Shown one piece after another: positions 2,315 through 35,835 of a stretch of DNA of 64,000 nucleotides. The notes under the pieces are model-generated. The model worked only from the letters and a program-made list of their open reading frames with translations. It searched no databases and was not told the DNA's origin. Origin of the DNA: Parashewanella curva (GTDB taxonomy: Bacteria > Pseudomonadota > Gammaproteobacteria > Enterobacterales > Shewanellaceae); NCBI RefSeq assembly GCF_003675895.1, contig NZ_ML014754.1:55288-119287 (forward strand). The letters run 5' to 3'. The position numbers and the translations under genes were made by a program. The number at the start of each line of letters is the position of its first letter. The first letter of the stretch is position 1.

Positions 2315-3481
2315 CTAATCCGCCCCAAACAAATCTCTGGTATAGACTTTATCTGCAACATCTCGAATATCATCAACCATACGATTAGCCACGATTACAT
2401 CACATTCTTGCTTAAAAACACTTAGCTCTTTTACCACTTCTGAATTAAAAAATGATGATGTTTCCAAAACAGGTTCATATACAACAACTTCGATACCCTT
2501 GGCTTTTAATCGTTTCATAATGCCCTGAATTGAAGATGCTCGGAAGTTGTCAGAACCGCTTTTCATGATCAACCTATAAATACCTACTTTTCGAGGTTTT
2601 CTCTTGATGATGGAGTCTGAAATAAAGTCTTTACGAGTGTTGTTCGCTTCTACAATCGCTCCGATAATATTATTCGGAACATCTTTATAGTTGGCGAGTA
2701 ATTGCTTGGTATCCTTTGGTAAACAGTAACCACCATAACCAAAAGAAGGGTTATTGTAATGTGAGCCTATACGAGGATCTAACCCAACACCTTCTATTAT
2801 CTGCTTACTATCCAAGCCATGAGCTTCAGCATACGAATCTAACTCATTAAAATAGGCCACACGCATCGCAAGATAAGTATTCGAAAATAGCTTAACCGCC
2901 TCAGCCTCGGTTGAATTAGTAAAAAGTATCGGGATATCTTTTTTTTCAGCTCCCTCAATCAACAATTGTGCATAGCCCTTTGCCCGCTCAGAGTTCTCAC
3001 CAATAATGATCCTCGATGGGTATAAATTATCATATAACGCCCTACCTTCACGCAGAAACTCAGGTGAAAAAAGAATGTTATCTGTCTCAAACTCAAGTTT
3101 GAGTCGCTGGGTATATCCAACGGGTACCGTGGACTTTATCACTATCAGAGCATTGGGATTTATTGATAATAACGACTTAATAACAGCCTCTACTGAAGCC
3201 GTATTAAAATAATTAGTCTCTGGGTCATAATCTGTAGGGGTAGCAATAATAACGATGTCAGCATCAGTATAGGCTTCTTGCTCATATACCGTTGCCTGTA
3301 GACTCAAGGGCTTGGTCGCCAAAAATGATACAATCTCAGCATCGATAATGGGTGACTCTTTCTGATTAACCTTTTCGACTTTAGCTAAATCAATATCTAA
3401 AGCAATGACTTCATTGTGCTGGGCCAATAAAACTGCATTTGAAAGCCCGACATAGCCGATACCCACAACGCAAATTTTCAT
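2315..3481 (-). CDS. ugd: UDP-glucose 6-dehydrogenase (stand-alone copy)
   Basis: This enzyme oxidises UDP-glucose to UDP-glucuronate with two NAD+. The 388-aa product has the Rossmann motif GIGYVGLS at the N-terminus, the substrate-binding [19 protein letters not shown] stretch, and the catalytic cysteine in [11 protein letters not shown] near residue 253. It is the short form with the compact C-terminal domain. A second copy of the same length and very similar sequence lies inside the polysaccharide operon at 17770-18936. This copy stands apart from other sugar genes, directly after gltX, so it may be a displaced part of an older locus or a copy with its own control. Confidence 0.95.
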
Positions 3482-8109: not shown

Positions 8110-8167
8110 TATACTCGTGATACTTGAAGATGCAACTTTCAGGGCTTATTCAAGTATCACGAGTATA
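8110..8167. mobile_element. Internally deleted copy of MITE family A
   Basis: These 58 bp consist of the left 40 or so bases of the 3671 element fused to its last 18, so both ends of the inverted repeat remain and almost the whole interior is gone. The result can fold into a short hairpin. It abuts a broken reading frame at 8165-8269. Confidence 0.85.
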
Positions 8168-8269
8168 GATATCGACCCGAGTAACGAAAATGTATCTCAG
8201 GTCATCCGTGGACTAGGAGAACTAGGTGTCATTGATGCTGCTAATCGATATATTGAAAAAGAAAGATGA
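8165..8269 (+). pseudogene. 3' remnant of a plus-strand gene cut off at the MITE
   Basis: Directly after the deleted MITE the plus strand has 34 codons reading IDIDPSNENVSQ, then VIRGLGELGVIDAANRYIE and KER, ending in TGA. It looks coding in composition but has no start codon; upstream in frame there is only MITE sequence and then a stop. I read it as the C-terminal end of a gene whose front was lost when the element inserted or deleted. I do not recognise the family. Confidence 0.45.
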
Positions 8270-8271
8270 AA

Positions 8272-10008
8272 TTACTGGCAGCCGATTCCCATTTCATTGA
8301 GCTTATTTTTAAAGCTTACTGCTTTATTTTTGGGAATAACCAACTGTAAATCATCGAGTGGCTGACAATATTTGGCCAGTACTTTATTGTTTAAGATAAG
8401 TGCTAACACGTCCTTATCCTTACAACGGTACACCATCGCCTCAAATTCTGCAGTAGCACCATCTAGGCGTTGGTTGATTTGCTTAAAGAGCGTTTCCCAA
8501 TCTTGAGGCAAAAAAGGTTGAGGATCACGTTGAAGTAAGAAGTCTTGTAGCTCATCAGTACTGCCACCAGATTGCAGGGCTTCCACTATAAGCTTTCGAT
8601 CCAATACCCAACACAAATCGTCTTTCTGCTTACAATATAGACCGATAAACTGGGTTTCCCATGGCAATGGTGTACTTTCAAAGCTCAATCGTCCTTTCGG
8701 CATTAACGTCACAGGAGTGACATCAAGGTTTACCGTTTCAGATTCATAATAGTCACTTTCTCCTAAAACATAAGCACCAAGGTTAGTTAAACGGATATGC
8801 GTCAGCCCTTCATATCGATGAAAACACTCAAGATCCATCAAGCCCCAATACTGCTCATTTGAGCTATTGGTTTTATCGAGATCTTGCAACACAATATCAA
8901 CTAAGCCTAAGGTGGCCGCATACTCTAATAGCAAACACTGTAAATAAGGCTCGGCAAGCACATCCCAATCCGCATTGTAAAAGCGACCATAATGTGAGTC
9001 ACAAGCATACAAGTAATCCGGTGCGGTCGTCACAACAACACCTGCACCTGTGGCTTTTAGGTATCGTGAAAAATCACTAAAACTGACCCATTCCCCAACA
9101 GGACAAATCTTTAGACCTTCGACCATAGCAACACGGCGCTCTGACACGTCAGTCATATAACGACTGCCTTTGCCTGTCTGTCCTTTTACAGCATTAATTC
9201 GATTGAACTCATCTTGGATGCTCTTAAACACCCAATCATGCCAAATAGAGCGGATTGTCTCAGCATTAGATTTAGCTGGCGTGGATGACATGGTCAACAT
9301 TGTGCTGCTGTTCTTGATAAAACGGCTATTGGCCAATAACCTTATCCAGCCATACGCCAAGATATGCTCTTCTCCTGATACCTCATAAAAATCAAAGCTA
9401 GAGTAATACTCCTCTAAAGATTTTGAGCAATATTTCAGCGTTGCCGCAGTTGGGCTCACCGTTTTATCGCTCACTTTGATTTTTTGGTTTTGAATGGCGG
9501 TTAATAACAAGTTGAGTTCAGTGAACACTCGTGGTTCACGATCATGAATGCGACAAGAAGCATCAAGGGGTTCGCTCAAGACGACTGATGTTATCGACTC
9601 TTTTTCAGGTGGCAATGCCCATTTTTTCAACTGTTCTTGTAAAGATAAAGGGATTGAGTGTTCTGATCGATTATTCGATTTATAAAAAAATACTGAATAA
9701 CCTAACAACTTTTCAACCTGCCAGTGATTGCGCCTTTTCGATGCAGGAAAATAGCCATATTTAGCCGTAAATCGATTCCTATCAATCACACCTTGATAAT
9801 TATAGATAGACTCACGTACAAGGTGCTGCTCAATTTCAGGCAGTGCCTCCCAATATGCCTTAAGCAAAACAAGATCAGATAAGCCCTTTTCTAACGCATC
9901 GACAATATCGGCTTTTCTAGTTACAGAAGGCTTTTTTCCGAAATAGGTAAAATAATGAGATTTTAATTCGTCGACAGTAAACAGCATCATGGCTTGAACA
10001 AGCGTCAT
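8272..10008 (-). CDS. Unknown 578-aa protein, possible helicase-associated or winged-helix type
   Basis: I do not recognise a named family. The N-terminus (LFTVDELKSHYFTYFGKKPSVTRKADIVDAL) resembles a SAP/LEM-like helix-extension-helix. The middle contains a stretch (LLTAIQNQKIKVSDKT then PTAATLKYCSKSL) reminiscent of the repeated winged-helix segments in helicase-associated proteins; both comparisons are by eye. No signal peptide or membrane segment is visible. The ATG at 10008 is preferred over a TTG at 10020; a run of seven G lies just upstream and is the only candidate ribosome-binding sequence. It sits between a J-domain gene (30 bp upstream) and the SNF2 helicase on the same strand, suggesting shared work on nucleic acids. 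Confidence 0.7.
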   Translation of the reverse strand: MTLVQAMMLFTVDELKSHYFTYFGKKPSVTRKADIVDALEKGLSDLVLLKAYWEALPEIEQHLVRESIYNYQGVIDRNRFTAKYGYFPASKRRNHWQVEKLLGYSVFFYKSNNRSEHSIPLSLQEQLKKWALPPEKESITSVVLSEPLDASCRIHDREPRVFTELNLLLTAIQNQKIKVSDKTVSPTAATLKYCSKSLEEYYSSFDFYEVSGEEHILAYGWIRLLANSRFIKNSSTMLTMSSTPAKSNAETIRSIWHDWVFKSIQDEFNRINAVKGQTGKGSRYMTDVSERRVAMVEGLKICPVGEWVSFSDFSRYLKATGAGVVVTTAPDYLYACDSHYGRFYNADWDVLAEPYLQCLLLEYAATLGLVDIVLQDLDKTNSSNEQYWGLMDLECFHRYEGLTHIRLTNLGAYVLGESDYYESETVNLDVTPVTLMPKGRLSFESTPLPWETQFIGLYCKQKDDLCWVLDRKLIVEALQSGGSTDELQDFLLQRDPQPFLPQDWETLFKQINQRLDGATAEFEAMVYRCKDKDVLALILNNKVLAKYCQPLDDLQLVIPKNKAVSFKNKLNEMGIGCQ

Positions 10009-12936: not shown

Positions 12937-13950
12937 TTACCCCTCATACCCATTCGGATTCATTGACTGCCAACGCCAAGTATCTTCAACCATCTCATCT
13001 AAAGTATGTTTAGCTTTCCAGCCTAGAACTTCTTCAGCATGACTTGGGTCAGCCCAACACTCAGCAATATCACCAGCTCGTCTTGCCATTACTTCATAAG
13101 GCACTGGCTTGTTAGATGCTTTTTCAAACGCCGCTACCATTTCAAGTACGCTTTGCCCTTGCCCTGTACCTAAATTGAAAATGTGTAACCCTGACTTTTT
13201 GCCCACTTTATTTACCGCAGCAATATGGCCATCAGCCAGATCGACAACATGAATATAATCTCGCACCCCAGTTCCATCAGGCGTTGGGTAATCATTACCG
13301 AACACACCCAATTTCTCACGACGTCCTACAGCAACTTGGGCAACAAAAGGTAAAAGGTTATTCGGAATACCTTGCGGGTCTTCGCCCAACATTCCTGATT
13401 TATGCGCACCAACGGGATTAAAATAACGAAGTAAAGTAATACTCCATTCAGAGTTCGCCTTTTTAAAATCCGTTAAACATTCTTCCACCATCAGCTTGCT
13501 GCGCCCATAAGGGTTGGTAGCCGAAGTAGGAAAGTTCTCTCGAATCGGAACAGAATCAGGATCGCCATAAACCGTTGCAGAGGAGCTAAAGACTAACTGC
13601 TTAACACCAGCCTTATCCATCGCTTGCACGAGGTTTAACGTGCCAGATACATTGTTGTCATAATACATCAAGGGTTTTGCGACAGACTCACCCACCGCCT
13701 TGAAACCAGCAAAATGAATCACACCTTCAATATCATGTTCAGCAAAAATTTTTTCTAATATGTGGCTATCACGAATATCACCCTCATAAAATTCAGGTTT
13801 ACTACCCGTCACTGCTTTTATTCTATCAAGAACTAGCTCTTTGCTGTTATATAAGTTATCCAAAATAATCGGCGTAATGCCCGCCTCGATCATTTGGATA
13901 CAAGTGTGGCTACCAATATAACCAGTGCCACCTGTTACTAAAATTTTCAA
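12937..13950 (-). CDS. galE: UDP-glucose 4-epimerase
   Basis: GalE interconverts UDP-glucose and UDP-galactose. The 337-aa protein has the Rossmann motif GGTGYIGSH, the SSSATVYG serine motif and the YGRSKLMVE catalytic Tyr-Lys pair, and the length expected for GalE. The start is a TTG at 13950: it gives the canonical MKILVTGGTGYIGS N-terminus and lies five bases from a GAGGT ribosome-binding site, while the upstream ATGs add a 14-residue tail with no support. It is the last gene of the polysaccharide operon, separated from galU by two HEPN/MNT modules. Confidence 0.95.
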   Translation of the reverse strand: MKILVTGGTGYIGSHTCIQMIEAGITPIILDNLYNSKELVLDRIKAVTGSKPEFYEGDIRDSHILEKIFAEHDIEGVIHFAGFKAVGESVAKPLMYYDNNVSGTLNLVQAMDKAGVKQLVFSSSATVYGDPDSVPIRENFPTSATNPYGRSKLMVEECLTDFKKANSEWSITLLRYFNPVGAHKSGMLGEDPQGIPNNLLPFVAQVAVGRREKLGVFGNDYPTPDGTGVRDYIHVVDLADGHIAAVNKVGKKSGLHIFNLGTGQGQSVLEMVAAFEKASNKPVPYEVMARRAGDIAECWADPSHAEEVLGWKAKHTLDEMVEDTWRWQSMNPNGYEG

Positions 13951-14082
13951 GATAACCTCAGATTTCAAAAAACGCTTCATGTAATATGGCACTAACCAAA
14001 AATCAATTTAGCGAAGAAACGCCTTCTATGCGTTAGTGAATGATAAAAATTTGTAATACTACCCTCAAGGTAAATACTGTAA

Positions 14083-14478
14083 TCATCTGATTTCGATAAT
14101 AAAGTCTTCAAAATCAGACAGGTCATTTTCTATGACATTAATGACAATATCTAAATTTAATGACTGATATTCATGCACCGCAATATTTCTTAATCCGACC
14201 ATACGCTGCATTTTTTCAGACAATTCAGGAGAAAGGTGTGATGACTTTTCTAAAATGGAGAAACTATCTCTACTTGACTGAGGCACTGATAACTTATGCG
14301 TTTTTATAACCACATTAGCCATATCAATTGAAGCTTCACAAGCTCGTTGTAAGTTCAAAATAACACTATCTTGGCGAGTAAAATCCAATCTAAAATTGTC
14401 GGATTCTCGGTAGACTTCATTAATCCTGCTAATGCAACGCCTAATTATTGAAGCTTTATCCATTAGTATATCATTCAT
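14083..14478 (-). CDS. hepT: HepT-like HEPN ribonuclease toxin (DUF86)
   Basis: The 131-aa all-helical protein carries the HEPN active-site motif R-X4-H-X-Y as RNIAVHEY (R97, H102, Y104). In the Shewanella oneidensis HepT/MntA pair, HepT is an RNase and the tyrosine of this motif is polyadenylated by MntA, which silences it; the motif spacing here is the same. Its gene follows mntA with a 5-bp gap and a ribosome-binding AGGA overlapping the mntA stop. Its role here is a type VII toxin or phage-defence function inside a polysaccharide operon, by family analogy. Confidence 0.9.
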   Translation of the reverse strand: MNDILMDKASIIRRCISRINEVYRESDNFRLDFTRQDSVILNLQRACEASIDMANVVIKTHKLSVPQSSRDSFSILEKSSHLSPELSEKMQRMVGLRNIAVHEYQSLNLDIVINVIENDLSDFEDFIIEIR

Positions 14479-14483
14479 TCAAT

Positions 14484-14870
14484 TCATCCTAAATAAAAGC
14501 TATCTACAATCAATTTCCTCTCTTCTTGTAAGCGCTGATACATTGACATTGTCTTGAGATTGAACCTAAAATCATCCGGTTCAGACCCATAAAGCAACTC
14601 ACCAGTTTGAGTAACTTGCATAGCAAGAACCGTAGAGCAAGATGTTAAATCGATGAGATCGACATCTCGACCAAACTGAATGGCTAAATCCTGAGCGCAA
14701 TTCCACAGCATCAATTTATCAACAGGTTCATTGCACAACACAGCAATGTCTATATCGCTCGAATATCTGTCTGAGCCGTTGGACATTGAACCAAATAAAT
14801 AAATTAACTTCACGTTATCTAACGTAGAAGTAAGGTGCTTCACGATGATTGGTTTGAAGTTCCGATTCAT
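14484..14870 (-). CDS. mntA: MntA-like nucleotidyltransferase antitoxin
   Basis: The 128-aa protein has the minimal nucleotidyltransferase signature GS-X10-DXD (G27-S28 ... D39-I-D41, in LFGSMSNGSDRYSSDIDIAV). In the characterised family it transfers AMP units to the HepT tyrosine and so neutralises the toxin. It lies just upstream of the HepT gene, antitoxin first, the usual order. The GSX10DXD motif is complete, so the enzyme should be active. Confidence 0.9.
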   Translation of the reverse strand: MNRNFKPIIVKHLTSTLDNVKLIYLFGSMSNGSDRYSSDIDIAVLCNEPVDKLMLWNCAQDLAIQFGRDVDLIDLTSCSTVLAMQVTQTGELLYGSEPDDFRFNLKTMSMYQRLQEERKLIVDSFYLG

Positions 14871-14916: not shown

Positions 14917-14949
14917 TTAAGCTGTGCCAGCAATCACTAAAATCTTCAA
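14917..14949 (-). pseudogene. Vestigial start of a nucleotide-sugar enzyme gene
   Basis: On the minus strand a TTG-led frame reads MKILVIAGTA and then stops. Its DNA resembles the first 30 or so bases of galE (TTG start, MKILVTGGTG) 1 kb downstream. It overlaps the end of the second nucleotidyltransferase gene. I read it as a leftover galE-type 5' end, perhaps from insertion of the mntA-hepT module. The call rests on a short match. Confidence 0.35.
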
Positions 14950-15251
14950 TTTGATAAAACCTTAACTCCCTCATTCTCTATTTGAGCAAGAAGTTTTTCA
15001 TTAGTAATTTTTTCTTTAATCACAATATCGACACGATAAGGAAACGTGCTAAGCTCAAAAATTTCCTTTAGATCAGAAACATCTTTTTCAGATAAACCTG
15101 AACCTGTAAGGGCAATATCAAGATCTGAACCGTCTTTAAATGAATTTGTAGCACGAGACCCAAAAAACCATGCAGATTCAATCCTTGAATTATCAGATAA
15201 AGAAGAAATAACAAAACTCAATTGAGAATGTGTAAGACCGAAGTCGTTCAT
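14946..15251 (-). CDS. Minimal nucleotidyltransferase (HI0073-like)
   Basis: The 101-aa protein contains a complete GS-X10-DXD motif (G31-S32 ... D43-L-D45, in FFGSRATNSFKDGSDLDIAL). It overlaps by 4 bp (ATGA) the gene upstream, which encodes its probable HEPN-type partner, so the two are translationally coupled. It belongs to the other MNT/HEPN arrangement, where the helical partner comes first. By analogy it is an antitoxin-type AMP transferase; this subfamily is less well characterised than MntA. Confidence 0.88.
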   Translation of the reverse strand: MNDFGLTHSQLSFVISSLSDNSRIESAWFFGSRATNSFKDGSDLDIALTGSGLSEKDVSDLKEIFELSTFPYRVDIVIKEKITNEKLLAQIENEGVKVLSN

Positions 15252-15655
15252 AATGTTCTTCTAGACAAGGTTTCAACCACACTTTCAAGCACCGAAAAAT
15301 ACTCTTTTTTTATTATCTTCAAAGATTTTTCGGCTAGTTGCTTATCATAAGTATGGGTAAGTAAGTTTCGATTATTTAACGCACTGAGCAAGCATTCACA
15401 ATCTGAAGATGTAATAAGGCCTGCTTGAAGAGCTGTACGGATGACGCTTCTTGGGCTTGCTTCAGTGTAGCCTTCATATTCCAACAAGTCTTTTAGCGTC
15501 TTCCATGTTAATTCGAACGTCATTTCAAAAGTTTTAATAACACCAGTCAACTCTAAAGCGGAATACTGCTTCATTTGACAGGCATCACTTAAATTATCAA
15601 AAGATAGCTTAAGATTACTAAATCGCAGTTTAAACCTTTCAAATTTATCAACCAT
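15248..15655 (-). CDS. HEPN-family partner of the nucleotidyltransferase (HI0074-like)
   Basis: The 135-aa helical protein has the family block FEMTFELTWKTLKDLL and a HEPN motif R-X4-H-X-Y as RNLLTHTY (R96, H101, Y103). HI0074-type proteins were first called substrate-binding subunits of nucleotidyltransferases; the intact HEPN motif suggests a ribonuclease toxin. It is the first gene of the second module, followed by its nucleotidyltransferase with a 4-bp overlap. Confidence 0.88.
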   Translation of the reverse strand: MVDKFERFKLRFSNLKLSFDNLSDACQMKQYSALELTGVIKTFEMTFELTWKTLKDLLEYEGYTEASPRSVIRTALQAGLITSSDCECLLSALNNRNLLTHTYDKQLAEKSLKIIKKEYFSVLESVVETLSRRTL

Positions 15656-15862: not shown

Positions 15863-16753
15863 CTAAACACGAGAATCTAATAACTTCTTAAGTTCTTCTT
15901 TAAACTGCTCACTCAATTTATCATCATTCAAAGCATATTCAGCAAATGCCAAAGCGTATCCTAGCTTATCACCACAATCGTGTGACTTGCCTGACATATG
16001 GAAAGCTTCAACGGTTTCTTGCTCGATTAGCATGTCAATAGCATCTGTAAGTTGAATCTCATCACCCGCACCTACAGGAGTTTTTTCGAGTAACGGCCAA
16101 ATATTAGCAGACAACACATAGCGGCCAACAACTGCAAGGTTAGATGGTGCATCTTCAACAGCTGGTTTTTCAACCATGCTATTAATTTTTGCAGATTCAC
16201 CATCACATAGTCCTACACCATTACAATCTGCAATGCCGTATTTATTGACTTCACTTTCAGGCACGGGAGCAACCATTATTTGACTTGCTTGAGTTTCTTT
16301 AAAGCGAGCCTTCATTGCCGCTAAGTTCATTGTGCTTTGATTAGCGGTATGTTCGTCAAGGATCACATCAGGTAAAACAACCATAAACGGGTTATCACCG
16401 ATACATGGTTTTGCACACAATACTGCATGTCCAAGCCCTTTAGCTTCCCCTTGCCTAACATGCATAATAGTTACATCTCTAGGGCAAATTGAGCGAACTT
16501 CTTCTAGAAGCTGACGCTTTACGCGCTTCTCAAGCGTAGATTCAAGCTCATAAGAAGTATCAAAATGGTTTTCGATGGCATTTTTACTTGAGTGGGTTAC
16601 TAAAACAATTTCTTTTATGCCGGCTGCAATACATTCATTTACAATATATTGAATTAATGGCTTATCCACCAAAGGTAACATTTCCTTTGGGATTGCTTTA
16701 GTTGCAGGCAACATTCTTGTGCCTAAACCTGCAACAGGAATAACTGCTTTCAT
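15863..16753 (-). CDS. galU: UTP--glucose-1-phosphate uridylyltransferase
   Basis: GalU makes UDP-glucose, the precursor for the ugd and galE products of this operon. The 296-aa protein begins [20 protein letters not shown], the nucleotidyltransferase signature, and has [15 protein letters not shown], the metal-binding PDVILDE region and MVEKP, all typical of bacterial GalU. It starts 12 bp after the epimerase stop. Spacing and direction place it in the polysaccharide operon. Confidence 0.97.
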
Positions 16754-16765
16754 TCTCTATCCTTT

Positions 16766-17767
16766 TTACTTGTAAAACCCTTTATACCATTTAACAAACT
16801 CCGCCACTCCCTCTTTAACAGAGACCTGCGGTTTATAACCTGTTGCCTCAAATAAGTCTTGTGTATCAGCATACGTTTGATATACATCCCCAGGTTGCAT
16901 TTCCCTGAAGTTCTTTTTTGCCTCGATACCAAGTTCTGATTCAACCGCTTTTACAAAATCCATCAAATTAATTGGTGAACCATGGCCAATATTATACACA
17001 GCATAAGGTGCCGAGCTGCTTGCTGGTGTGCCACTTTCTACTGTCCAGTTATCATTCCGCTTTGGAATAACGTCAGCGATACGTACCACCCCTTCAACAA
17101 TGTCATTTACGTGAGTGAAATCACGCCACATATCACCATTATTATTAATATCTATCACTTCACCGTTAAGGATTTTCTTTGTGAAGATAAATGGCGCCAT
17201 ATCTGGACGTCCCCATGAACCATAAACAGTAAAAAATCGAAGCCCTGTAGTCGGAATATCATACAAATGAGAATAACTATGTGACATCAGTTCATTTGCT
17301 TTTTTCGTCGCTGCGTACAGTGAAACGGGATGATCAACAGAATCTGTTGTAGCAAAAGGTACTTTACTGTTTAACCCATACACAGAACTTGATGACGCAT
17401 AAACTAAATGCTTAACATTATTATGACGGCACCCTTCTAAAATATTAAGATGACCTGTTAAGTTGGAATCTGCATAAGCATGGGGGTTTTGAAGCGAGTA
17501 ACGAACACCTGCTTGAGCCGCCAAATGAATAACAACATCAAAATTCTCCGATTTAAATAAACTCTCTACATCATTCCGATCAGAAATATCTAATTTCAAA
17601 AAGCGAAAATTTGTGTGTTCAATTCTTTCCAAACGAGCATGCTTCAAACTGACTTCATAATAGTCATTAAGGTTATCTATACCTACTACTTGATGGCCTT
17701 TTGAAATTAATCTTTCTACAACGGCACTACCGATAAAACCCGCTGCTCCTGTCACTAAATATTTCAT
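16766..17767 (-). CDS. NAD-dependent sugar epimerase, probably UDP-glucuronate 4-epimerase
   Basis: The 333-aa short-chain dehydrogenase has GAAGFIGSAV at the N-terminus, the SSSSVYG motif and the catalytic YAATKK. The sequence IDNLNDYYEVSLKHARLERI is characteristic of UDP-glucuronate 4-epimerases (GalE relatives that make UDP-galacturonate). It directly follows ugd, whose product would be its substrate; the ATG at 17767 lies two bases past the ugd stop. The exact substrate is inferred from context and sequence type. Confidence 0.88.
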   Translation of the reverse strand: MKYLVTGAAGFIGSAVVERLISKGHQVVGIDNLNDYYEVSLKHARLERIEHTNFRFLKLDISDRNDVESLFKSENFDVVIHLAAQAGVRYSLQNPHAYADSNLTGHLNILEGCRHNNVKHLVYASSSSVYGLNSKVPFATTDSVDHPVSLYAATKKANELMSHSYSHLYDIPTTGLRFFTVYGSWGRPDMAPFIFTKKILNGEVIDINNNGDMWRDFTHVNDIVEGVVRIADVIPKRNDNWTVESGTPASSSAPYAVYNIGHGSPINLMDFVKAVESELGIEAKKNFREMQPGDVYQTYADTQDLFEATGYKPQVSVKEGVAEFVKWYKGFYK

Positions 17768-17769
17768 AA

Positions 17770-18936
17770 TCAATCTGCTCCGAACAAATCCCTTGTATAA
17801 ACCTTAAATTCAACATCACTTATTTCATCGACCATACGATTGGCAACAATCACATCACAGCTAGATTTAAATTCATTGAGATCTTTGATCACTTTAGAAT
17901 TAAAAAACTCAGCATCATCAAGAACTGGCTCATACACAACAACTTCAATACCTTTCGCTTTTATACGCTTCATGATCCCCTGAATTGACGACGCTCTGAA
18001 ATTATCAGATCCTGATTTCATAATTAACCGATAAACACCTACTCTTTTCGGTGATTTTTTGATCACAGAATCGGCGATAAAATCTTTACGAGTAGTATTA
18101 GCATCAACGATGGCATTAATGATATTATTTGGAACATCACGATAATTAGCACGAAGCTGTTTCGTGTCTTTAGGTAAACAGTATCCACCGTAGCCAAACG
18201 AAGGATTATTGTAATGATTACCAATTCTCGGATCTAACCCAACACCTTCAATAATCTGCCTCGCATCAAGCCCATGAGATTCCGCATATGAATCCAGCTC
18301 ATTAAAGTAAGCAACACGCATAGCAAGATAAGTGTTAGAAAAAAGCTTAACGGCCTCAGCTTCAGTTGAATCGGTAAATAAAACAGGAATATCTTCTTTA
18401 ATAGCACCATCAGTCAGCATCGAGGCAAAAGTTTGTGCACGGTCACTTTTTTCACCAACAATAATACGAGAAGGATACAAATTATCATGCAGCGCCTTAC
18501 CTTCACGTAGAAACTCAGGTGAAAAAATAATACTATCGCAGCTAAACTTTTCTTTAACTTCCTTTGTAAACCCAACAGGAACAGTAGACTTAATGACCAT
18601 TACAGCGGTTGGGTTTATATCTAGAACATCTTTAATTACTGCTTCTACAGAGCTGGTATTAAAAAAGTTCGTCTCAGGATCATAATCTGTTGGTGTCGCT
18701 ATGATGACGAAGTCTGCATCCTGATAGGCAAGTTGTTTATTCGTAGTTGCTTTGAAATTTAAAGTATCATTACTAAGAAATTGTTCAATTTCAGTGTCAA
18801 CAATAGGAGAAACTCTGTTATTTAATAAATCGACTTTCTCTTGAATAATATCGAGTGCTACTACTTCGCTGTTTTGCGCTAATAAAAGCGCATTCGATAA
18901 CCCAACGTAACCAGTGCCAGCAACTGCAATTTTCAT
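17770..18936 (-). CDS. ugd: UDP-glucose 6-dehydrogenase (operon copy)
   Basis: A second 388-aa Ugd, collinear with the one at 2315-3481 and identical over long stretches including SPEFLREG and [14 protein letters not shown] (catalytic Cys near residue 253). It supplies UDP-glucuronate to the epimerase downstream and to polymer assembly. It is 16 bp after a glycosyltransferase gene and 2 bp before the epimerase start, so it is firmly part of the operon. Confidence 0.96.
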
Positions 18937-24625: not shown

Positions 24626-25597
24626 TTAAAGATTAATCTTTAGCTTATTACCGTAGAATTCATCAAATTTCTCAGGAATAATCATGTCAAAGCCACTACT
24701 ATGCTGCATCGTGAACTCTCCAAAGAAGATTTCATCATCACATAAATATAAATCTACTCGTATATATTCAAAATCTTCTGATAGCTTCTCTGCAATAGCG
24801 ATCATATCGTCAAGTCTATTTGGTTTTTCTACCTCAGGGCCTTCAAAAACTTTTTCATTTCCTAATTTAGTCCATGTAAAAGGGGCTAACGTCCAGTCTG
24901 GATAATAGATTTTTCGATAATTTAAATTTTCTCTATCTGCAGAAACATAAATAAATTCAACCTTTCCTTTAAAACAATGAAATTTTAAATCATTAGGGAT
25001 ATTGCCATTTCTATCTTGCAACAATTTCTCTGCTAATGATTTTTTTACAATATTCTTATATTGCCATTCTTTAGTTAGAAGATAATGGTTACATTTGAAT
25101 CTTTCGCGAAGAAACAAGTTGATGTATTTATTGTTGTACTCGACTACTGAATCGAAATCATTTAATGATATCTTAGGCTCGCTGATCCCCTTTACATTAC
25201 TAAGAGCCTGATGTTTATTTTTAATAATTAGGCCACCTGAGCTATCATGATTAGATTTAACAATTAAAGGGAAATCGCTATCATCAATTAATTTAATGTC
25301 AACAACATCATGACTCCCAAGAGTAAACACACTTGGTATAACAATATTAGTAAGTCCTTTATTAGCAATATACTCTTTTACAAGAGCCTTATCAGTGATC
25401 ATCGTATAGACAGGGTTTCTATCGTAGAGCTTAATATATTGAAGTTTTTCATTTAATGTTTTAGGTGACCTTAAATTTAGTTTTTTCTTAGTCAATTTAT
25501 AATACATAAACTTAAGGTACACTGAGTCTAAAGCCCTAATACCAGAAGTCGCTTCCAATATAGAATAAACTACTTTTTTTAAAACACGTTTAATCAC
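24626..25597 (-). CDS. ATP-grasp TupA-like protein
   Basis: The 323-aa protein matches the TupA-like ATP-grasp type found in polysaccharide loci: an N-terminal LRSPKTLNEKLQYIKLYDRN, the nucleotide-binding FPLIVKSNHDSSGGLIIKN, and a C-terminal metal-binding EYIRVDLYLCDDEIFFGEFT. TupA was named for teichuronopeptide synthesis, joining peptide to polyglucuronate; ATP-grasp enzymes generally make C-N bonds to carboxylates. Many relatives are loosely annotated as glycosyltransferases. In this locus, which makes uronic acids and carries an amino-alcohol cassette, an amide ligase role is attractive but unproven. Confidence 0.85.
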   Translation of the reverse strand: MIKRVLKKVVYSILEATSGIRALDSVYLKFMYYKLTKKKLNLRSPKTLNEKLQYIKLYDRNPVYTMITDKALVKEYIANKGLTNIVIPSVFTLGSHDVVDIKLIDDSDFPLIVKSNHDSSGGLIIKNKHQALSNVKGISEPKISLNDFDSVVEYNNKYINLFLRERFKCNHYLLTKEWQYKNIVKKSLAEKLLQDRNGNIPNDLKFHCFKGKVEFIYVSADRENLNYRKIYYPDWTLAPFTWTKLGNEKVFEGPEVEKPNRLDDMIAIAEKLSEDFEYIRVDLYLCDDEIFFGEFTMQHSSGFDMIIPEKFDEFYGNKLKINL

Positions 25598-25626
25598 AAC
25601 AATCCTTTAAATCCAAAAATATAAAA

Positions 25627-26865
25627 TTATTTAATAACATGCCTGTTATAGTTCAACAAGAAATAAACAGAATGAAATGCCAACATTAATACCCAAGACC
25701 ATGCAAGCCCATAAGCTCCAAACAAATGAATCAAGGGTATCGCAAGCAAAAAGTTGACTATTACTGTCACTTTCAGTATGTGTGTGACAATCTCACTTTT
25801 TCCTGCAGCGATGAGCACATAAGTATAAAGAGGTCCCACTTGAAAAAATACTAATGAAATTGAAAGTATTTTCAGAATATTCACGACTTCCGGATTCATA
25901 TCTCCTGAAAATAAGAAAATAATCTGTTTACTCAAAAAATAGAAACCAAGAGAAGATGCAACTGAAAGTAATCCGACGCCTATATTGATTTTACGTAAAA
26001 AAATAAAAAACTCTGATTTTTTTTGAGTGAAAAGTCTAGATAAGTAAGGGAATGATGCTTGATAGATAGGTGAAAATAAGGCTGAAAGCGTTTGGACAAT
26101 ACGATCTGCAATAGAGTAATACCCAACAATCGTATTATTTGTCATAAACCCTAACAATAAAACATTCCCATTAACATATATATTGGTGTAAATACGACTT
26201 AAAAAAATATTCCACCCTGTAACAAATTGCTCTTCTATAGTTTTATATCCTTGTAGTTTATAGCTTATTCCAAATTTAGAATGGGCAATATATAATGAGA
26301 TCACAGAAGAAAGAGTCACCCCAATGGATGTTATAATCGGCACATAATGAAAATCTTCAGGCTTATTTACAAAAATAAAAATACATATAGTACTGAGCGC
26401 TCTAGATAGTACATTCAGATTTGTAACATACTTCATTTCTTCTAAGCCCTGAAACAGCCATACAGGAAATAAAACTTGAGCCAAAACTGTTCCAAAAGTA
26501 AAGAAATATATGAGACTATTTTCAGAATATTTGGGTATAAAAGCAGTAAGCAAGGAAAGTATTAAAAAGCAGATTACTAACAGTAACAATTTAACCGTCA
26601 AGACTGAACTAAATATTTCTTCTATCTTTATTTTATCGTTTCTATTTAATGAGATTTCTTTGGTTGCAGACAGGTTAAATCCATAATCAGTGATTAATAA
26701 AAAATATGAAACCGTTGCAGTAGCAAAAGCTAATAAACCAAAATCATCTACATCTAAAATACGAATTAGATAAGGTAAGGTAATTAAAGGAAACACATAT
26801 CCAGCCCCTTGTAATAGGGTTAAATACAACGTATTTTTTAATACAACTTTTTTATCTTTATCCAC
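25627..26865 (-). CDS. wzx: Polysaccharide flippase
   Basis: The 412-aa protein is a MOP-superfamily transporter with about 12 membrane helices. The N-terminal LQGAGYVFPLITLPYLIRIL and DDFGLLAFATATVSYFLLI are typical of Wzx flippases that move undecaprenyl-linked repeat units to the periplasm. It pairs functionally with Wzy and Wzz encoded in the same operon. Confidence 0.92.
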   Translation of the reverse strand: MDKDKKVVLKNTLYLTLLQGAGYVFPLITLPYLIRILDVDDFGLLAFATATVSYFLLITDYGFNLSATKEISLNRNDKIKIEEIFSSVLTVKLLLLVICFLILSLLTAFIPKYSENSLIYFFTFGTVLAQVLFPVWLFQGLEEMKYVTNLNVLSRALSTICIFIFVNKPEDFHYVPIITSIGVTLSSVISLYIAHSKFGISYKLQGYKTIEEQFVTGWNIFLSRIYTNIYVNGNVLLLGFMTNNTIVGYYSIADRIVQTLSALFSPIYQASFPYLSRLFTQKKSEFFIFLRKINIGVGLLSVASSLGFYFLSKQIIFLFSGDMNPEVVNILKILSISLVFFQVGPLYTYVLIAAGKSEIVTHILKVTVIVNFLLAIPLIHLFGAYGLAWSWVLMLAFHSVYFLLNYNRHVIK

Positions 26866-26934
26866 TTTATTTAAATTACCTAAAAGGGATCAAAAAAGCT
26901 AGAGAAAACATTGCACTTTCTCTAGCTACAATAG

Positions 26935-27399
26935 TTACGAGAATTGCTTTATCCACGCATAGTCATAATATTCAATATCTGAATTACTGTTAGCAAAGTT
27001 TATGACTTCTTGATAATACTTTATCTCACCATTTTCATGATTATAACTAAGGTCATCAAAATATTTTATTGAGTATCCTTCTGAGAGATATCTTTTAAGA
27101 TAATCGACTTTATCATTCGCCCTATCAACTAAAATTGTTTGATAATTCAATTTAAATCCAAGTACAAATCTCAACCAAAACCTGGTAACAGGCTTATAAT
27201 AATATGTTCTTGCAGAAAGAAAAAGCACTTCAACACTAGAGTCCTCTTGTTTAATCAGATCATATATTTTACTTACAACATTTCTTTTAGGCTTAAGCTT
27301 TAAATAATTTAAAACAAGTGGAATTTTTCTATCAACTAATGTCGGCCAAGTTTCTGCTATTGTGTTGTCGATATCTATAATAAAAATTGATTTTTGCAT
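26935..27399 (-). CDS. HAD-superfamily phosphatase-like protein
   Basis: The 154-aa protein carries all four HAD motifs: DIDNT (D9, D11), LSART (motif II serine), a lysine in VDYLKRYL, and FDDLSYNHE (motif IV). It has no large cap, so it should accept a bulky or small exposed phosphate ester. It starts 2 bp after the PLP-enzyme stop. In Campylobacter capsule loci a HAD phosphatase works with PLP enzymes making ethanolamine or serinol phosphate; the same role is proposed here by analogy. Confidence 0.85.
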   Translation of the reverse strand: MQKSIFIIDIDNTIAETWPTLVDRKIPLVLNYLKLKPKRNVVSKIYDLIKQEDSSVEVLFLSARTYYYKPVTRFWLRFVLGFKLNYQTILVDRANDKVDYLKRYLSEGYSIKYFDDLSYNHENGEIKYYQEVINFANSNSDIEYYDYAWIKQFS

Positions 27400-27401
27400 A
27401 G

Positions 27402-28595
27402 TTAATCAAGCAATTTTTTAAAATCTGATAATGTATCTGAAATAGCCTTAACGACAAGCTTATTTTCATCTGGTCTTCGTGTGGCGACACGAATATAATT
27501 ACCATCAAGACCTACTTTATCATTAGCGCCTCTGACTAAAACATTATATCTTATCAGCATAACGTAACAGAATACTTGAGGATCTATATTATCTGGTAGC
27601 TCAATTAAATAAAAGTTCGTATTTGTAGGGAGTACTTTAACATCATCAATATTATTTAGTAATATACCAAGCTCTTTTATGTCATCTATATGCTGCTTGC
27701 GACAAGCTTCATATTGCATCATATAATCATTTGCAGATAATAAATCTACAAAGTGCTCAGCAAAGCCACTCACATTCCATAACTTACCATGAGCCAAAGT
27801 ACGATTGATAGTAGATTCATCTGCAAGCATATAGCCTAAACGCAAACCAGCTATGCCAAAGTCTTTGGAAAGGCTCTTGACAATAATAACATTATCGTAG
27901 TTTTCAAAGAAATAATTATGTGAAGCATCTTGATAAGAATTAAATCCATCTTTGAGATGTATAAAGCTTTCATCAATGATCACTTTAACATCCTTTCTTT
28001 TACAGGCCTGAATAATTTCTTCAAGTTTATCAAACTGAGTATATTGAGCATCGGGATTATTAGGATTAATTACAACAAGAGCTTCAGCTTCATCTAACAT
28101 ACCTTCTATGTCACTGAGCTCAAGCTGATAGTTATTCGACTTTTTTAAATAATTGAGTAATAATCTTTCCTTTTCCTCACAAAACTCATAGTAACTGGAA
28201 AAAGTAGGCAAATTAACAATAATTTTACCTTGAATAACCTCTTTTAGTAGTAGCTCAATGATTTCAATTGCACCATTACCAACAAATACATTTTTTTCAT
28301 TAACAGAGAGAACGTTTGATAACTTTTTTGAAATGCTATGATTTTGTGATGGGTAATTTTCAATATACCCTCTACAAGCATCTGAACTCATTAACTTGTT
28401 AAGCTCACGTAAATATAAATCTGTTCCATAAGGATTAGATAAAAAGCACGCATCAACCAAAATATTTTTAGGCGATAGTATCTGGTCAATTTCTGATGGG
28501 CTTGGTGAATGTGTTCCAGATTCTTTTTTTAACTCTAATAATTTTTCTAAAGTTATTCTTTCTTGTTCATTTAAACTTTCAAAAAGTTTACTCAT
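27402..28595 (-). CDS. PLP-dependent aminotransferase/decarboxylase (HisC/CobD-like fold)
   Basis: The 397-aa fold-type I enzyme has the PLP lysine in SLSKDFGIAGLRLGY (K244), the PLP-ring aspartate in VIIDES (D208), and NPNNPDA. SNPYGTDLYLREL near residue 53 matches the substrate-side entry of HisC/CobD proteins, after an N-terminal extension of about 45 residues. Relatives include histidinol-phosphate aminotransferase, threonine-phosphate decarboxylase and the capsule enzymes making ethanolamine phosphate or serinol phosphate. Its position between a putative serine kinase (1 bp upstream) and a HAD phosphatase (2 bp downstream) favours a phosphoserine decarboxylase or amino-alcohol phosphate role; not histidine biosynthesis. 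Confidence 0.85.
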   Translation of the reverse strand: MSKLFESLNEQERITLEKLLELKKESGTHSPSPSEIDQILSPKNILVDACFLSNPYGTDLYLRELNKLMSSDACRGYIENYPSQNHSISKKLSNVLSVNEKNVFVGNGAIEIIELLLKEVIQGKIIVNLPTFSSYYEFCEEKERLLLNYLKKSNNYQLELSDIEGMLDEAEALVVINPNNPDAQYTQFDKLEEIIQACKRKDVKVIIDESFIHLKDGFNSYQDASHNYFFENYDNVIIVKSLSKDFGIAGLRLGYMLADESTINRTLAHGKLWNVSGFAEHFVDLLSANDYMMQYEACRKQHIDDIKELGILLNNIDDVKVLPTNTNFYLIELPDNIDPQVFCYVMLIRYNVLVRGANDKVGLDGNYIRVATRRPDENKLVVKAISDTLSDFKKLLD

Positions 28596-28596
28596 A

Positions 28597-29034
28597 TCAA
28601 AATTCCAATTTTGCTAAGCTTGATAGTAAAATAATTGGTTGAGGTTCGCTAGAGACATCCACAATATGATGAAATGTAGATTTAGGCTCTAATAAATTTT
28701 TATTTACCGCATGCTGAATTACTACTTCTTTTTTTATTGGTTGTTCATTCAAGTCAGTAATAATTCTATGATTTGAATAGTTCAGTTTTATTGTTGGAAT
28801 CTTTTCAAACCCTAACTTTTTTAGCGCAAAATATCGATGATGCCCATCAATGATTACATTTGTTTTATCACAAACTAATATAGATGGCACAATTACATAT
28901 GGCTTTAGCGATTCTAAATAGTTAATTAATGAAGCACAGCGCTCCTCTACAACTTTTTCGTGAGTTAAAATCAGATCTGGATGTTCCCAAGAAAATCCTT
29001 TTACAAGTGGTTCATTAAAATCAAGTGAATACAT
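28597..29034 (-). CDS. ParB/Srx-fold protein, possible free-serine kinase
   Basis: The 145-aa protein has the ParB-like core with VVEERCASLINYL followed by VIIDGHHRYFALKKLGFEKI (DGHHR at 63-67). The DGHHR box is the hallmark of the SbnI/SerK branch of the ParB fold, which phosphorylates free L-serine to O-phosphoserine. There is no DNA-binding helix-turn-helix, unlike chromosome-partition ParB. It is tightly coupled (1 bp) to the PLP gene, which could use O-phosphoserine. The kinase call rests on motif and context. Confidence 0.72.
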   Translation of the reverse strand: MYSLDFNEPLVKGFSWEHPDLILTHEKVVEERCASLINYLESLKPYVIVPSILVCDKTNVIIDGHHRYFALKKLGFEKIPTIKLNYSNHRIITDLNEQPIKKEVVIQHAVNKNLLEPKSTFHHIVDVSSEPQPIILLSSLAKLEF

Positions 29035-29068: not shown

Positions 29069-30004
29069 CTACCTTCCCATACCAAATAAAACAACTTTAA
29101 TTGTTTTAAATAAAATTTTAATATCTAAAAGTGTACTGTGATGTTTTATGTAATATATATCAAATTTGTGCTTCCATATTGCATCCTCAAGCGATGCACC
29201 ATAAGGATAACTCACTTGTGCTAGCCCCGTAACTCCTGGTTTGACAGCATGCCTAAAGCGATAGTATGGAATTTGCTCTTCAAGGTCTTTAATGAAAACT
29301 TCACGTTCAGGGCGAGGGCCAACAATTGACATCTCGCCTTTTAGGATATTGATAATTTGAGGTAATTCATCAATCCTAGTTTTTCTTATGAAGTTTCCAA
29401 CCCTCGTTACTCTTGCATCATTTTTGGTGGCCCATCGTGCGCCTGATATTTCAGCATCATTTCGCATTGAGCGAAACTTAATGACTTCGAACTCGTCATT
29501 ATATTGGCCGGTTCTTTTTTGTTTATAAAAAATTGGCCCTGGACTTTCCAACTTTATGAATAAAGCTGTAATAAGGCCAATAGGTAACGCAATTAGAGCT
29601 AAAAGAGCCGCAGACAATACATCAACACAACGTTTGGCGATTTGCGTACGTTTAGTTGATAAGATTGAAAATGCTTTTTGATGTAAAAAATAACCACTAT
29701 GGAGTAATTTTACCTCAGTGTACGCGAGCCTAGAGTCTAGATAACTGATTAATGGTTCAACCCAAGCCCCCTGCTCAGTTGCTCGAACAAGAAAATCACG
29801 CTGTTCCTCACTTAAAGAGCTGCTCTCATAATGGCAAATTACCTTACAACTTAAATCACTTAACTCGTAATGGTTTACCTTTATTTTAAAATTATAGTCT
29901 TCTGAAATTGTATTTATTTCAGCTTCTTTTTCTAAAGGACAAAAAACATATATTTCATTTTGTGAAAGAGCTTTTTCAGGATTTTTAAATCTTTTTAGAG
30001 GCAT
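29069..30004 (-). CDS. Undecaprenyl-phosphate sugar phosphotransferase (initiating transferase)
   Basis: The 311-aa protein ends in the bacterial sugar transferase domain: KRCVDVLSAALLALIALPIG membrane segment, KFRSMRNDAE, RKTRIDELPQIINILKGEMS and IVGPRPERE. It loads the first sugar-1-phosphate on undecaprenyl phosphate. The N-terminal 120 residues lack the usual four-helix membrane domain of WbaP and look soluble, so it is a shortened form. The first sugar (glucose, galactose or an N-acetylated sugar) cannot be read from sequence. Confidence 0.92.
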   Translation of the reverse strand: MPLKRFKNPEKALSQNEIYVFCPLEKEAEINTISEDYNFKIKVNHYELSDLSCKVICHYESSSLSEEQRDFLVRATEQGAWVEPLISYLDSRLAYTEVKLLHSGYFLHQKAFSILSTKRTQIAKRCVDVLSAALLALIALPIGLITALFIKLESPGPIFYKQKRTGQYNDEFEVIKFRSMRNDAEISGARWATKNDARVTRVGNFIRKTRIDELPQIINILKGEMSIVGPRPEREVFIKDLEEQIPYYRFRHAVKPGVTGLAQVSYPYGASLEDAIWKHKFDIYYIKHHSTLLDIKILFKTIKVVLFGMGR

Positions 30005-34102: not shown

Positions 34103-34441
34103 CAGTACCGACCCGCATATCGCACGCTACCGATCCGCGTGGCCCGCCAGAGGTGCTTCGGCGGTAGCTAAAAGAGTGAAACTGTTCACTTATTTGCCCT
34201 TCGAAAACATCTAAGAAGACACTTTTCAAGTGTCACACACTACCGACCCGCGTGGCGCGCCAGAGGCGCTTCGGCGGTAGCTAAATAAGTGAAACTTTTC
34301 ACTTATTTGCCCTTCGAAAACCTCCAAGAAGACACTTTTCAAGTGTCACACACTACCGATCCGCGTGGCGTGCCAGAGGCACTTCGGCGGTAGCTAAATA
34401 AGTGAAACTTTTCACTTATTTGCCCTTCGGGCACGCTACCG
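34103..34441 (-). repeat. Three 113-bp hairpin-rich tandem repeats in the operon leader
   Basis: Three units on a strict 113-bp period (starts 34103, 34216, 34329; the first partly diverged). In the transcribed minus strand each unit can form three hairpins: AAATAAGTGAAA/TTTCACTTATTT, a CTACCG...CGGTAG stem enclosing GTGCC/GGCAC, and GACACTT/AAGTGTC. Base changes in the inner stem are compensated between copies (GTGCC/GGCAC, GCGCC/GGCGC). Each unit also carries an ops-like core (CGGTAGTGTG or CGGTAGCGTG) on the transcribed strand. Confidence 0.85.
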
Positions 34442-34472
34442 CCCATAGGTTTCGGCTCCTAAAGACCATCTG
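34432..34472 (-). promoter_or_regulatory. JUMPstart element with ops site
   Basis: On the minus strand the 41-bp block begins CAGATGGTC, contains TAGGAGCCGAAACC, and ends with GGCGGTAGCGTG (34432-34443), a perfect 12-nt ops core. In known systems RNA polymerase pauses at ops and RfaH loads on the exposed non-template strand, then suppresses termination over the long operon. It lies 470 bp before the export gene, and rfaH is encoded just upstream. Confidence 0.93.
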
Positions 34473-34837: not shown

Positions 34838-35350
34838 CTAAGCTGAAAGCTTGTCTATTGCCTCTAGTGGAACTTCCACTCGCTTCATAGAACCCAGTAG
34901 CTTAAGAAGTACGAAACACCGCTTTTCACCAGACGTTTCTTCAAATACACCTTCTATTTCAGAAAATGCACCATGGTTGACTTTAATTTTGTCACCTTTT
35001 TGGGGTAGCTGTTCTTCTAACTCGATAGGTTGGTTCATCATCTTAGCAACTTGAACTTTGATTGCCGTAATGAGTGAAGGATCAATCGCAGTCATCACTT
35101 CTTTGCAACCCACGATTTGGCTTACGCCGCGGGTAGAATGGATACGACTTACCGAAGTGACTTTGGGGTCAAAATAAATAAATAGGTAATTTGGAAATAA
35201 AGGCACATTACTTACGGTCTTCTTTCCCGACCTTTGCTTTTTGGCCTCGAGATACATGGGTAAGTATGTCTCGATACTTTGCATTTGGAGGTTTTGCTGT
35301 GCCCGTATTTCACTTTTGGGTTTGCAGTAGACTAAGTACCAAGCTTTCAT
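34838..35350 (-). CDS. rfaH: Transcription antitermination factor RfaH
   Basis: The 170-aa NusG paralogue starts MKAWYLVYCKPKSEIRAQQN, has the NGN-domain PLFPNYLFIYFDP and a C-terminal KOW domain with KGDKIKVNHGAFSEIEGVFE. RfaH binds the ops element and promotes transcription and translation of long surface-polysaccharide operons. The ATG at 35350 is used because AGGA lies six bases upstream and it gives the family N-terminus; an upstream ATG at 35386 adds 12 unsupported residues. The ops target lies about 400 bp downstream of its own stop. Confidence 0.94.
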   Translation of the reverse strand: MKAWYLVYCKPKSEIRAQQNLQMQSIETYLPMYLEAKKQRSGKKTVSNVPLFPNYLFIYFDPKVTSVSRIHSTRGVSQIVGCKEVMTAIDPSLITAIKVQVAKMMNQPIELEEQLPQKGDKIKVNHGAFSEIEGVFEETSGEKRCFVLLKLLGSMKRVEVPLEAIDKLSA

Positions 35351-35835
35351 TGTTGTTCCTGATTCATTATATGTAGCAGGTGACATCCTCTATCACGGCG
35401 ATTGATACTACAAACATTTAGATCTGATTAAAAGTGGTTTTGCTACTTTTTTTGATCTCAACAGGCTTAACTGATTAAAAATTATCTAGCAATGAATTTT
35501 CTTTATCACTAGAAACTATTACATCTCTATTGACCGAGTAAAAACTATATTGATATTAATTACTCACGTTACAGCCTAGTTCTTTATTAAACTGCTCAAA
35601 TTACGAAGCACATCTTTTATTCTAAAAAAACCGATTGGTTAATCGAATTTAATGCGTAATTGCTTGCTTATTTTGTGATATGTACAGCTATGAATAAGTA
35701 GCCATTCTGGGGCTTTCAGTTTGACTTTTCCTCTCTATAAAAGGTATATATAGCCTGATAATTCATAAAAATTAATATTGGTTAATCTTTGTTTTTAAGT
35801 AAACCAAAAAATTTTAAATTAGGTGGGAAACAATA
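35351..35835 (+). promoter_or_regulatory. Intergenic region with probable promoter of the peptide transporter
   Basis: This 485-bp gap between divergent genes is very AT-rich. A TTGACT box at 35721-35726 is followed after 18 bp by TATATA (35745-35750), about 85 bp before the transporter start. I see no gene or repeat in the rest. Confidence 0.5.

Follow-up and report, generated by a model that had tools for sequence, protein, structure and literature searches.

A proposed kinase-first route to uronic acid amidation in a polysaccharide operon of Parashewanella curva

Introduction

In Campylobacter jejuni, the C-terminal domain of Cj1438 links either ethanolamine phosphate or serinol phosphate to glucuronic acid (GlcA) as an amide, after which the phosphate is taken off by Cj1435 (PMC12409886; also PMC13276843). 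The free serine kinase SerK of archaea is serine specific, threonine and homoserine not being substrates (PMC5120207), and in its relative SbnI residues Glu20 and Asp58 are described as necessary for kinase activity, in the part of PMC9641203 that cites Verstraete 2018. Here we describe a gene cassette in a stretch of 64,000 nt of the Parashewanella curva contig NZ_ML014754.1 (the window), in which a 145-aa protein with a ParB-type fold, labeled KIN, is encoded together with a pyridoxal phosphate (PLP) enzyme and a haloacid dehalogenase (HAD) phosphatase in a polysaccharide operon that also carries a TupA-type ATP-grasp ligase. We consider it probable that this cassette makes an amino-alcohol amide from free serine in four steps and attaches it to a uronic acid of an exported polysaccharide.

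Results

An earlier note on this DNA had described three genes 1 to 2 bp apart, encoding a ParB-fold protein with a DGHHR box, a PLP enzyme, and a HAD phosphatase. Coordinates and motifs bore this out, the gaps being 1 bp between KIN and PLP and 2 bp between PLP and HAD. The HAD gene is followed by genes for a Wzx-like flippase, the TupA-type ligase, glycosyltransferases, Ugd, and an epimerase, with galU last; KIN, PLP, HAD, Wzx-like, TupA-like, ugd, and epimerase genes are all on the minus strand. The TupA-like protein announced two genes on was thus in place, beyond the flippase, whereas ugd and a uronate epimerase, both present downstream, do not end the operon, since galU comes after them.

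In the proposed pathway, KIN would phosphorylate free L-serine to O-phospho-L-serine, which the PLP enzyme would decarboxylate to ethanolamine phosphate. The TupA-type ligase would form an amide between the carboxylate of a uronic acid residue, glucuronic or galacturonic (supplied by Ugd and the epimerase), and the amine of ethanolamine phosphate, and the HAD phosphatase would strip the phosphate to leave an N-(2-hydroxyethyl) uronamide. The four activities, the specificity for serine, and the nature of the substituent and its position are all predictions. They are drawn from the order of the genes, from their families and folds, from the conservation of catalytic residues, and from recurrent co-occurrence.

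Both the HisC and the CobD profiles matched the window PLP enzyme, the best score being that of threonine-phosphate decarboxylase CobD (NCBIfam), and its best solved relative was 6oux, a threonine-phosphate-decarboxylase-like enzyme (37% identity). A plasmid homologue (37.8% identity) in a cobamide operon is annotated "norcobamide biosynthesis serine-O-phosphate decarboxylase." In the tree, 82 family sequences, including Campylobacter capsule-locus and norcobamide enzymes, formed one supported group, and neighboring Cj1437-like aminotransferases stood apart. The PLP lysine and the H-S-P-S motif peculiar to the family were kept in the window protein. By profile, identity, and tree, the enzyme thus groups with the phosphoserine decarboxylases and not with sugar aminotransferases, in keeping with the pathway proposed in the earlier note. 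We give hardly any credence to a sugar or histidinol-phosphate-type aminotransferase amid unrelated polysaccharide genes: the matches to both HisC and CobD would suit it, but the family is separate from the aminotransferase that adjoins it in Campylobacter, has a motif of its own, and consistently has ligase and phosphatase genes as neighbors.

The single KIN sequence matched the NCBIfam profiles of SerK (E = 7.5e-11, 41.6 bits) and SbnI (E = 2.4e-4, 20.6 bits). With a profile built from eight short KINs the matches became stronger (SerK, 1.1e-16; SbnI, about 1e-11), and ParB-family structures reached only 1e-3. The top nine PDB fold matches of the KIN AlphaFold model (predicted local distance difference test [pLDDT] score, 80.8) were SerK, SbnI, or the Pyrococcus furiosus homologue 1vk1, all with an E value of <1e-3. 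Sequence and predicted structure therefore place KIN closest to the SerK/SbnI free serine kinases, ahead of ParB or nuclease, which is the kinship that had been proposed for it. The DGHHR box occupies KIN residues 63 to 67, and E26, D63-GHHR-67, K118, T120, and H122 were invariant in seven short KINs. E26 aligned to SerK E30, the residue mutated (E30Q and E30A) in phosphoserine-bound SerK crystal structures, and E26 and D63 aligned to the two SbnI residues named above. The KIN profile aligned to SerK residues 19 to 100 and then 204 to 231, the intervening stretch being absent from the short form.

The window ligase belongs to PF14305, the Pfam family that also holds the C terminus of the Campylobacter fusion of a family 2 glycosyltransferase (GT2) with a ligase, and is 44% identical to a TupA protein encoded beside a PLP gene in another locus (L040). 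In two Campylobacter loci from metagenome-assembled genomes (L027 and L056) the gene order was ugd, Glf (in L027), GT2-TupA fusion, aminotransferase, PLP, and HAD-IB, in agreement with the capsule genes of C. jejuni HS:2. The parallel with HS:2 drawn in the earlier note holds in this shared ligase family; the published chemistry there is amidation by the Cj1438 C-terminal domain, then dephosphorylation by Cj1435 (PMC12409886). For the window HAD protein, D9, D11, R64, K97, D115, and D116 were invariant in 20 relatives, and the DxDNT, K, and DD motifs were kept. Its AlphaFold model (pLDDT, 95) matched PNKP phosphatase, acid phosphatase, and deoxynucleotidase folds weakly (best E = 9e-3), and it matched no NCBIfam model. 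A small HAD gene adjoins the PLP gene in many loci. The substrate of the phosphatase might be the amidated sugar or else free ethanolamine phosphate.

One genome scan for PLP relatives yielded 80 loci from many phyla, in which a ligase gene (TupA, RimK-like, or PaaK-like) or a phosphatase gene no more than 2.5 kb from the PLP gene was counted as a partner. A ligase was found in 50 loci, a phosphatase in 43, and both in 41; as the partner seed profiles were partly drawn from these same loci, the counts reflect recognition of known partners and not blind discovery. The ligases were of three unrelated types (RimK-like ATP-grasp in 31 loci, PaaK-like in 14, and TupA in 6), and the phosphatases were of two HAD types (small HAD in 27 and SerB-like in 16). 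Neither partner was present in 28 loci, among them several of Planctomycetes, Chloroflexi, and Desulfohalobiaceae and the Sulfurospirillum cobamide operon, and in these the PLP enzyme probably serves other ends. One planctomycete branch of the PLP tree was devoid of ligase and phosphatase partners (L046, L048, L054, L057, L058, L064, L065, L067 to L070, L075, and L087). Searches of plasmids did not find the cassette.

The gene set of the window recurs in other polysaccharide loci, and KIN lay near PLP in 3 of the 80 loci. A Bacteroidota locus (L018) has the order RimK-like, PLP, KIN, the last two frames abutting without a gap; a Tenacibaculum locus (L066) has PLP, HAD, RimK-like, two glycosyltransferases, and KIN; and in a Kerfeldbacteria locus (L055) a PaaK-like ligase is fused to KIN (8119-9957), immediately upstream of PLP. 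Counting the window, the PLP genes with a linked KIN fall in four different parts of the PLP tree, for which at least four changes are needed; these may reflect repeated gain or, alternatively, repeated loss. Three occurrences compare with about 0.008 expected at the KIN density of the window's own family, a rough background, and in the 34 PLP-bearing genomes searched whole, the only KINs were the three linked to PLP. The association of PLP with KIN is more than chance.

Elsewhere KIN was rare. It was found in 3 of 146 other genomes of the window's family, where its neighbors were of the siderophore type, and in none of 194 other genomes in the order of genome G890; in the order of genome G889 the one convincing match in 317 other genomes was apparently a contaminant. 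Several candidates were set aside. A KIN in genome G967 (L146, 2284-2676, minus strand) lacks a PLP partner, and its contig, although binned as Flavobacteriales, is apparently archaeal. Weak KIN-type profile matches in 92 of 369 genomes of the class, which besides the window KIN reached at most about 32 bits and were mostly in frames of 270 to 560 aa, were judged to be of the ParB type. DGHHR matches in L058 and L068 were not matched by the KIN profile and were taken as chance frames in GC-rich DNA, and three viral contigs inspected for DGHHR proteins (a phage-like contig, one with a TonB-receptor-like frame, and one lacking a long frame) were not relevant.

Other short KINs adjoin an SbnA-like PALP enzyme (L003) and an SbnH-like decarboxylase (L005). 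Another is found in Agrobacterium, in a siderophore locus that includes IucA/IucC genes, and one short-KIN locus is staphyloferrin-B-like. Because short KINs thus stand beside two different phosphoserine-using pathways, their neighborhoods lend independent support to serine phosphorylation. Open-access papers yielded no report of a polysaccharide locus with a serine kinase.

The features of the cassette and its surroundings are listed in Table 1. An exact ops element (GGCGGTAGCGTG) lies at window positions 34432 to 34443 (minus strand), between an RfaH/NusG-like gene (34838-35386, by sequence reading) and export genes; a search with at most one mismatch gave 3 matches, versus 1.24 expected by chance. 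From this element and the RfaH/NusG-like gene, the polysaccharide operon is likely to be under RfaH-dependent antitermination. Just downstream of galU, at 14083-14870 and 14946-15655 (minus strand), are two adjacent gene pairs that, read from sequence only, resemble minimal nucleotidyltransferases with HEPN-type partners (toxin-antitoxin-like). Also near the operon, and identified in the same manner, are another copy of ugd at 2315-3481 and a galE-like gene at 12937-13992 (both minus strand).

Table 1. Genes of the polysaccharide cluster around the KIN-PLP-HAD cassette (window positions)
Feature	Position	Strand	Support
Bacterial sugar transferase (initiating glycosyl-phosphate transferase), directly upstream of KIN	29069..30004	-	Bac_transf E = 4.4e-66
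KIN, short (145 aa) SerK/SbnI-type protein, proposed free serine kinase (serine to O-phosphoserine)	28597..29034	-	SerK and SbnI are top profile and fold matches
PLP enzyme, 397 aa, phosphoserine-decarboxylase family, proposed to convert O-phosphoserine into ethanolamine phosphate	27402..28595	-	Aminotran_1_2 E = 5.7e-36
Small HAD phosphatase, 154 aa, proposed phosphate removal after amide coupling	26935..27399	-	Catalytic motifs, neighborhoods
Wzx-like flippase	25627..26865	-	Polysacc_synt E = 1.2e-57
TupA-type ATP-grasp ligase, proposed uronic acid-ethanolamine phosphate amide bond	24626..25597	-	PF14305 E = 1.8e-39, above cut-off
ugd, UDP-glucose 6-dehydrogenase, source of uronic acid	17770..18936	-	NF011631 702 bits; TIGR03026 above cut-off
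Short-chain dehydrogenase/reductase nucleotide-sugar epimerase, probable UDP-uronate epimerase (putative specificity)	16766..17773	-	Epimerase E = 4.8e-58
galU-like UTP-glucose-1-phosphate uridylyltransferase, final gene of cluster	15863..16753	-	Sequence reading

Discussion

The interpretation given in the earlier note is supported: its testable parts held, and its chemistry is what we still infer. Several observations weigh against the four-step pathway. KIN falls below the NCBIfam equivalog cut-offs for SerK and SbnI (380 and 350 bits, against 41.6 and 20.6 for KIN) and has 145 aa against about 240 to 255 aa in the full-length proteins, about 100 central residues being missing. Most PLP loci have no KIN. 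SerC is also encoded in the genome, so that phosphoserine would already come from central metabolism and a kinase is not strictly needed. The window PLP enzyme diverges more than any other family member, deviating at 31 of 130 conserved positions (median, 3; second highest, 20), and its substrate or product may therefore have shifted. The earlier note had likened the HAD protein to the Campylobacter phosphatase, and although the HAD catalytic motifs and fold stand, the window protein lies outside the Campylobacter-type group, the L027 HAD protein matching TIGR01490 (HAD-IB). Finally, the Campylobacter module was identified from gene order in L027 and L056, not from the C. jejuni proteins themselves.

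Two of these points, the presence of SerC and the many PLP loci that manage without KIN, would also fit a KIN that is mainly an operon regulator or nucleotide sensor, phosphoserine being made by SerC, and for its relatives SbnI and EdeB, DNA binding or transcriptional control has been reported (PMC9641203). We regard such a role as very unlikely, since the short protein has no space for a DNA-binding domain and keeps all kinase residues, its gene lies inside the operon amid biosynthetic genes, and the fusion of KIN to a ligase in L055 fits an enzyme better than a regulator. The divergence of the PLP enzyme, together with CobD as its best-scoring profile, bears instead on the product: the same four steps might yield another amino-alcohol, if KIN used threonine or another hydroxy-amino acid or if the PLP enzyme made another amine phosphate, and the polymer would then carry, for example, 1-amino-2-propanol or serinol. 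This variant is rather unlikely, given that archaeal SerK is inactive on threonine and homoserine (PMC5120207), that other short KINs adjoin phosphoserine-using genes, and that the closest annotated relative of the PLP enzyme is a serine-O-phosphate decarboxylase. The pathway from serine to an ethanolamine amide thus remains the preferred reading.

We lean toward regarding this as a previously undescribed, kinase-first form of uronic acid amidation, in which a dedicated minimal free serine kinase feeds a polysaccharide module and was recruited in several independent events, one of them a fusion to the ligase, and in which three types of ligase and two of phosphatase are interchangeable around one conserved phosphoserine decarboxylase. 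Of the new route suggested in the earlier note, the kinase beside the module is supported by gene order and families, but the arrangement is not unique to the P. curva genome. If correct, this would extend to many phyla chemistry that is proven only for the capsules of Campylobacter, the gene signature of phosphoserine decarboxylase, ligase, and phosphatase would predict amide-linked ethanolamine in bacterial polysaccharides, and short "ParB-like" proteins of metabolic operons would be serine kinases, not DNA-binding proteins.

With SerK of Thermococcus and SbnI of Staphylococcus (staphyloferrin B), KIN shares the ParB-type fold, the catalytic Glu, the DGHHR box, and a C-terminal K-[ST]-T-x-H motif, and SbnI, like the proposed KIN, supplies phosphoserine to a dedicated pathway; KIN differs in its length and in its place next to a predicted phosphoserine decarboxylase within a polysaccharide operon, whereas SerK and SbnI serve cysteine or siderophore synthesis. 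The norcobamide serine-O-phosphate decarboxylase of Sulfurospirillum, the PLP enzyme 37.8% identical to that of the window, delivers its product to the cobamide nucleotide loop and, unlike the window enzyme, has no kinase, ligase, or HAD partner. The window and C. jejuni HS:2 (Cj1436, Cj1437, Cj1438C, and Cj1435) alike combine a PLP enzyme of the phosphoserine-decarboxylase family, a TupA-family ATP-grasp ligase, a HAD phosphatase, and a UDP-GlcA dehydrogenase in one polysaccharide locus. In the window, however, a proposed dedicated serine kinase is added and a Cj1437-type aminotransferase is lacking, the ligase is free-standing and not fused to a GT2, the phosphatase is of another HAD group, and the system contains Wzx.

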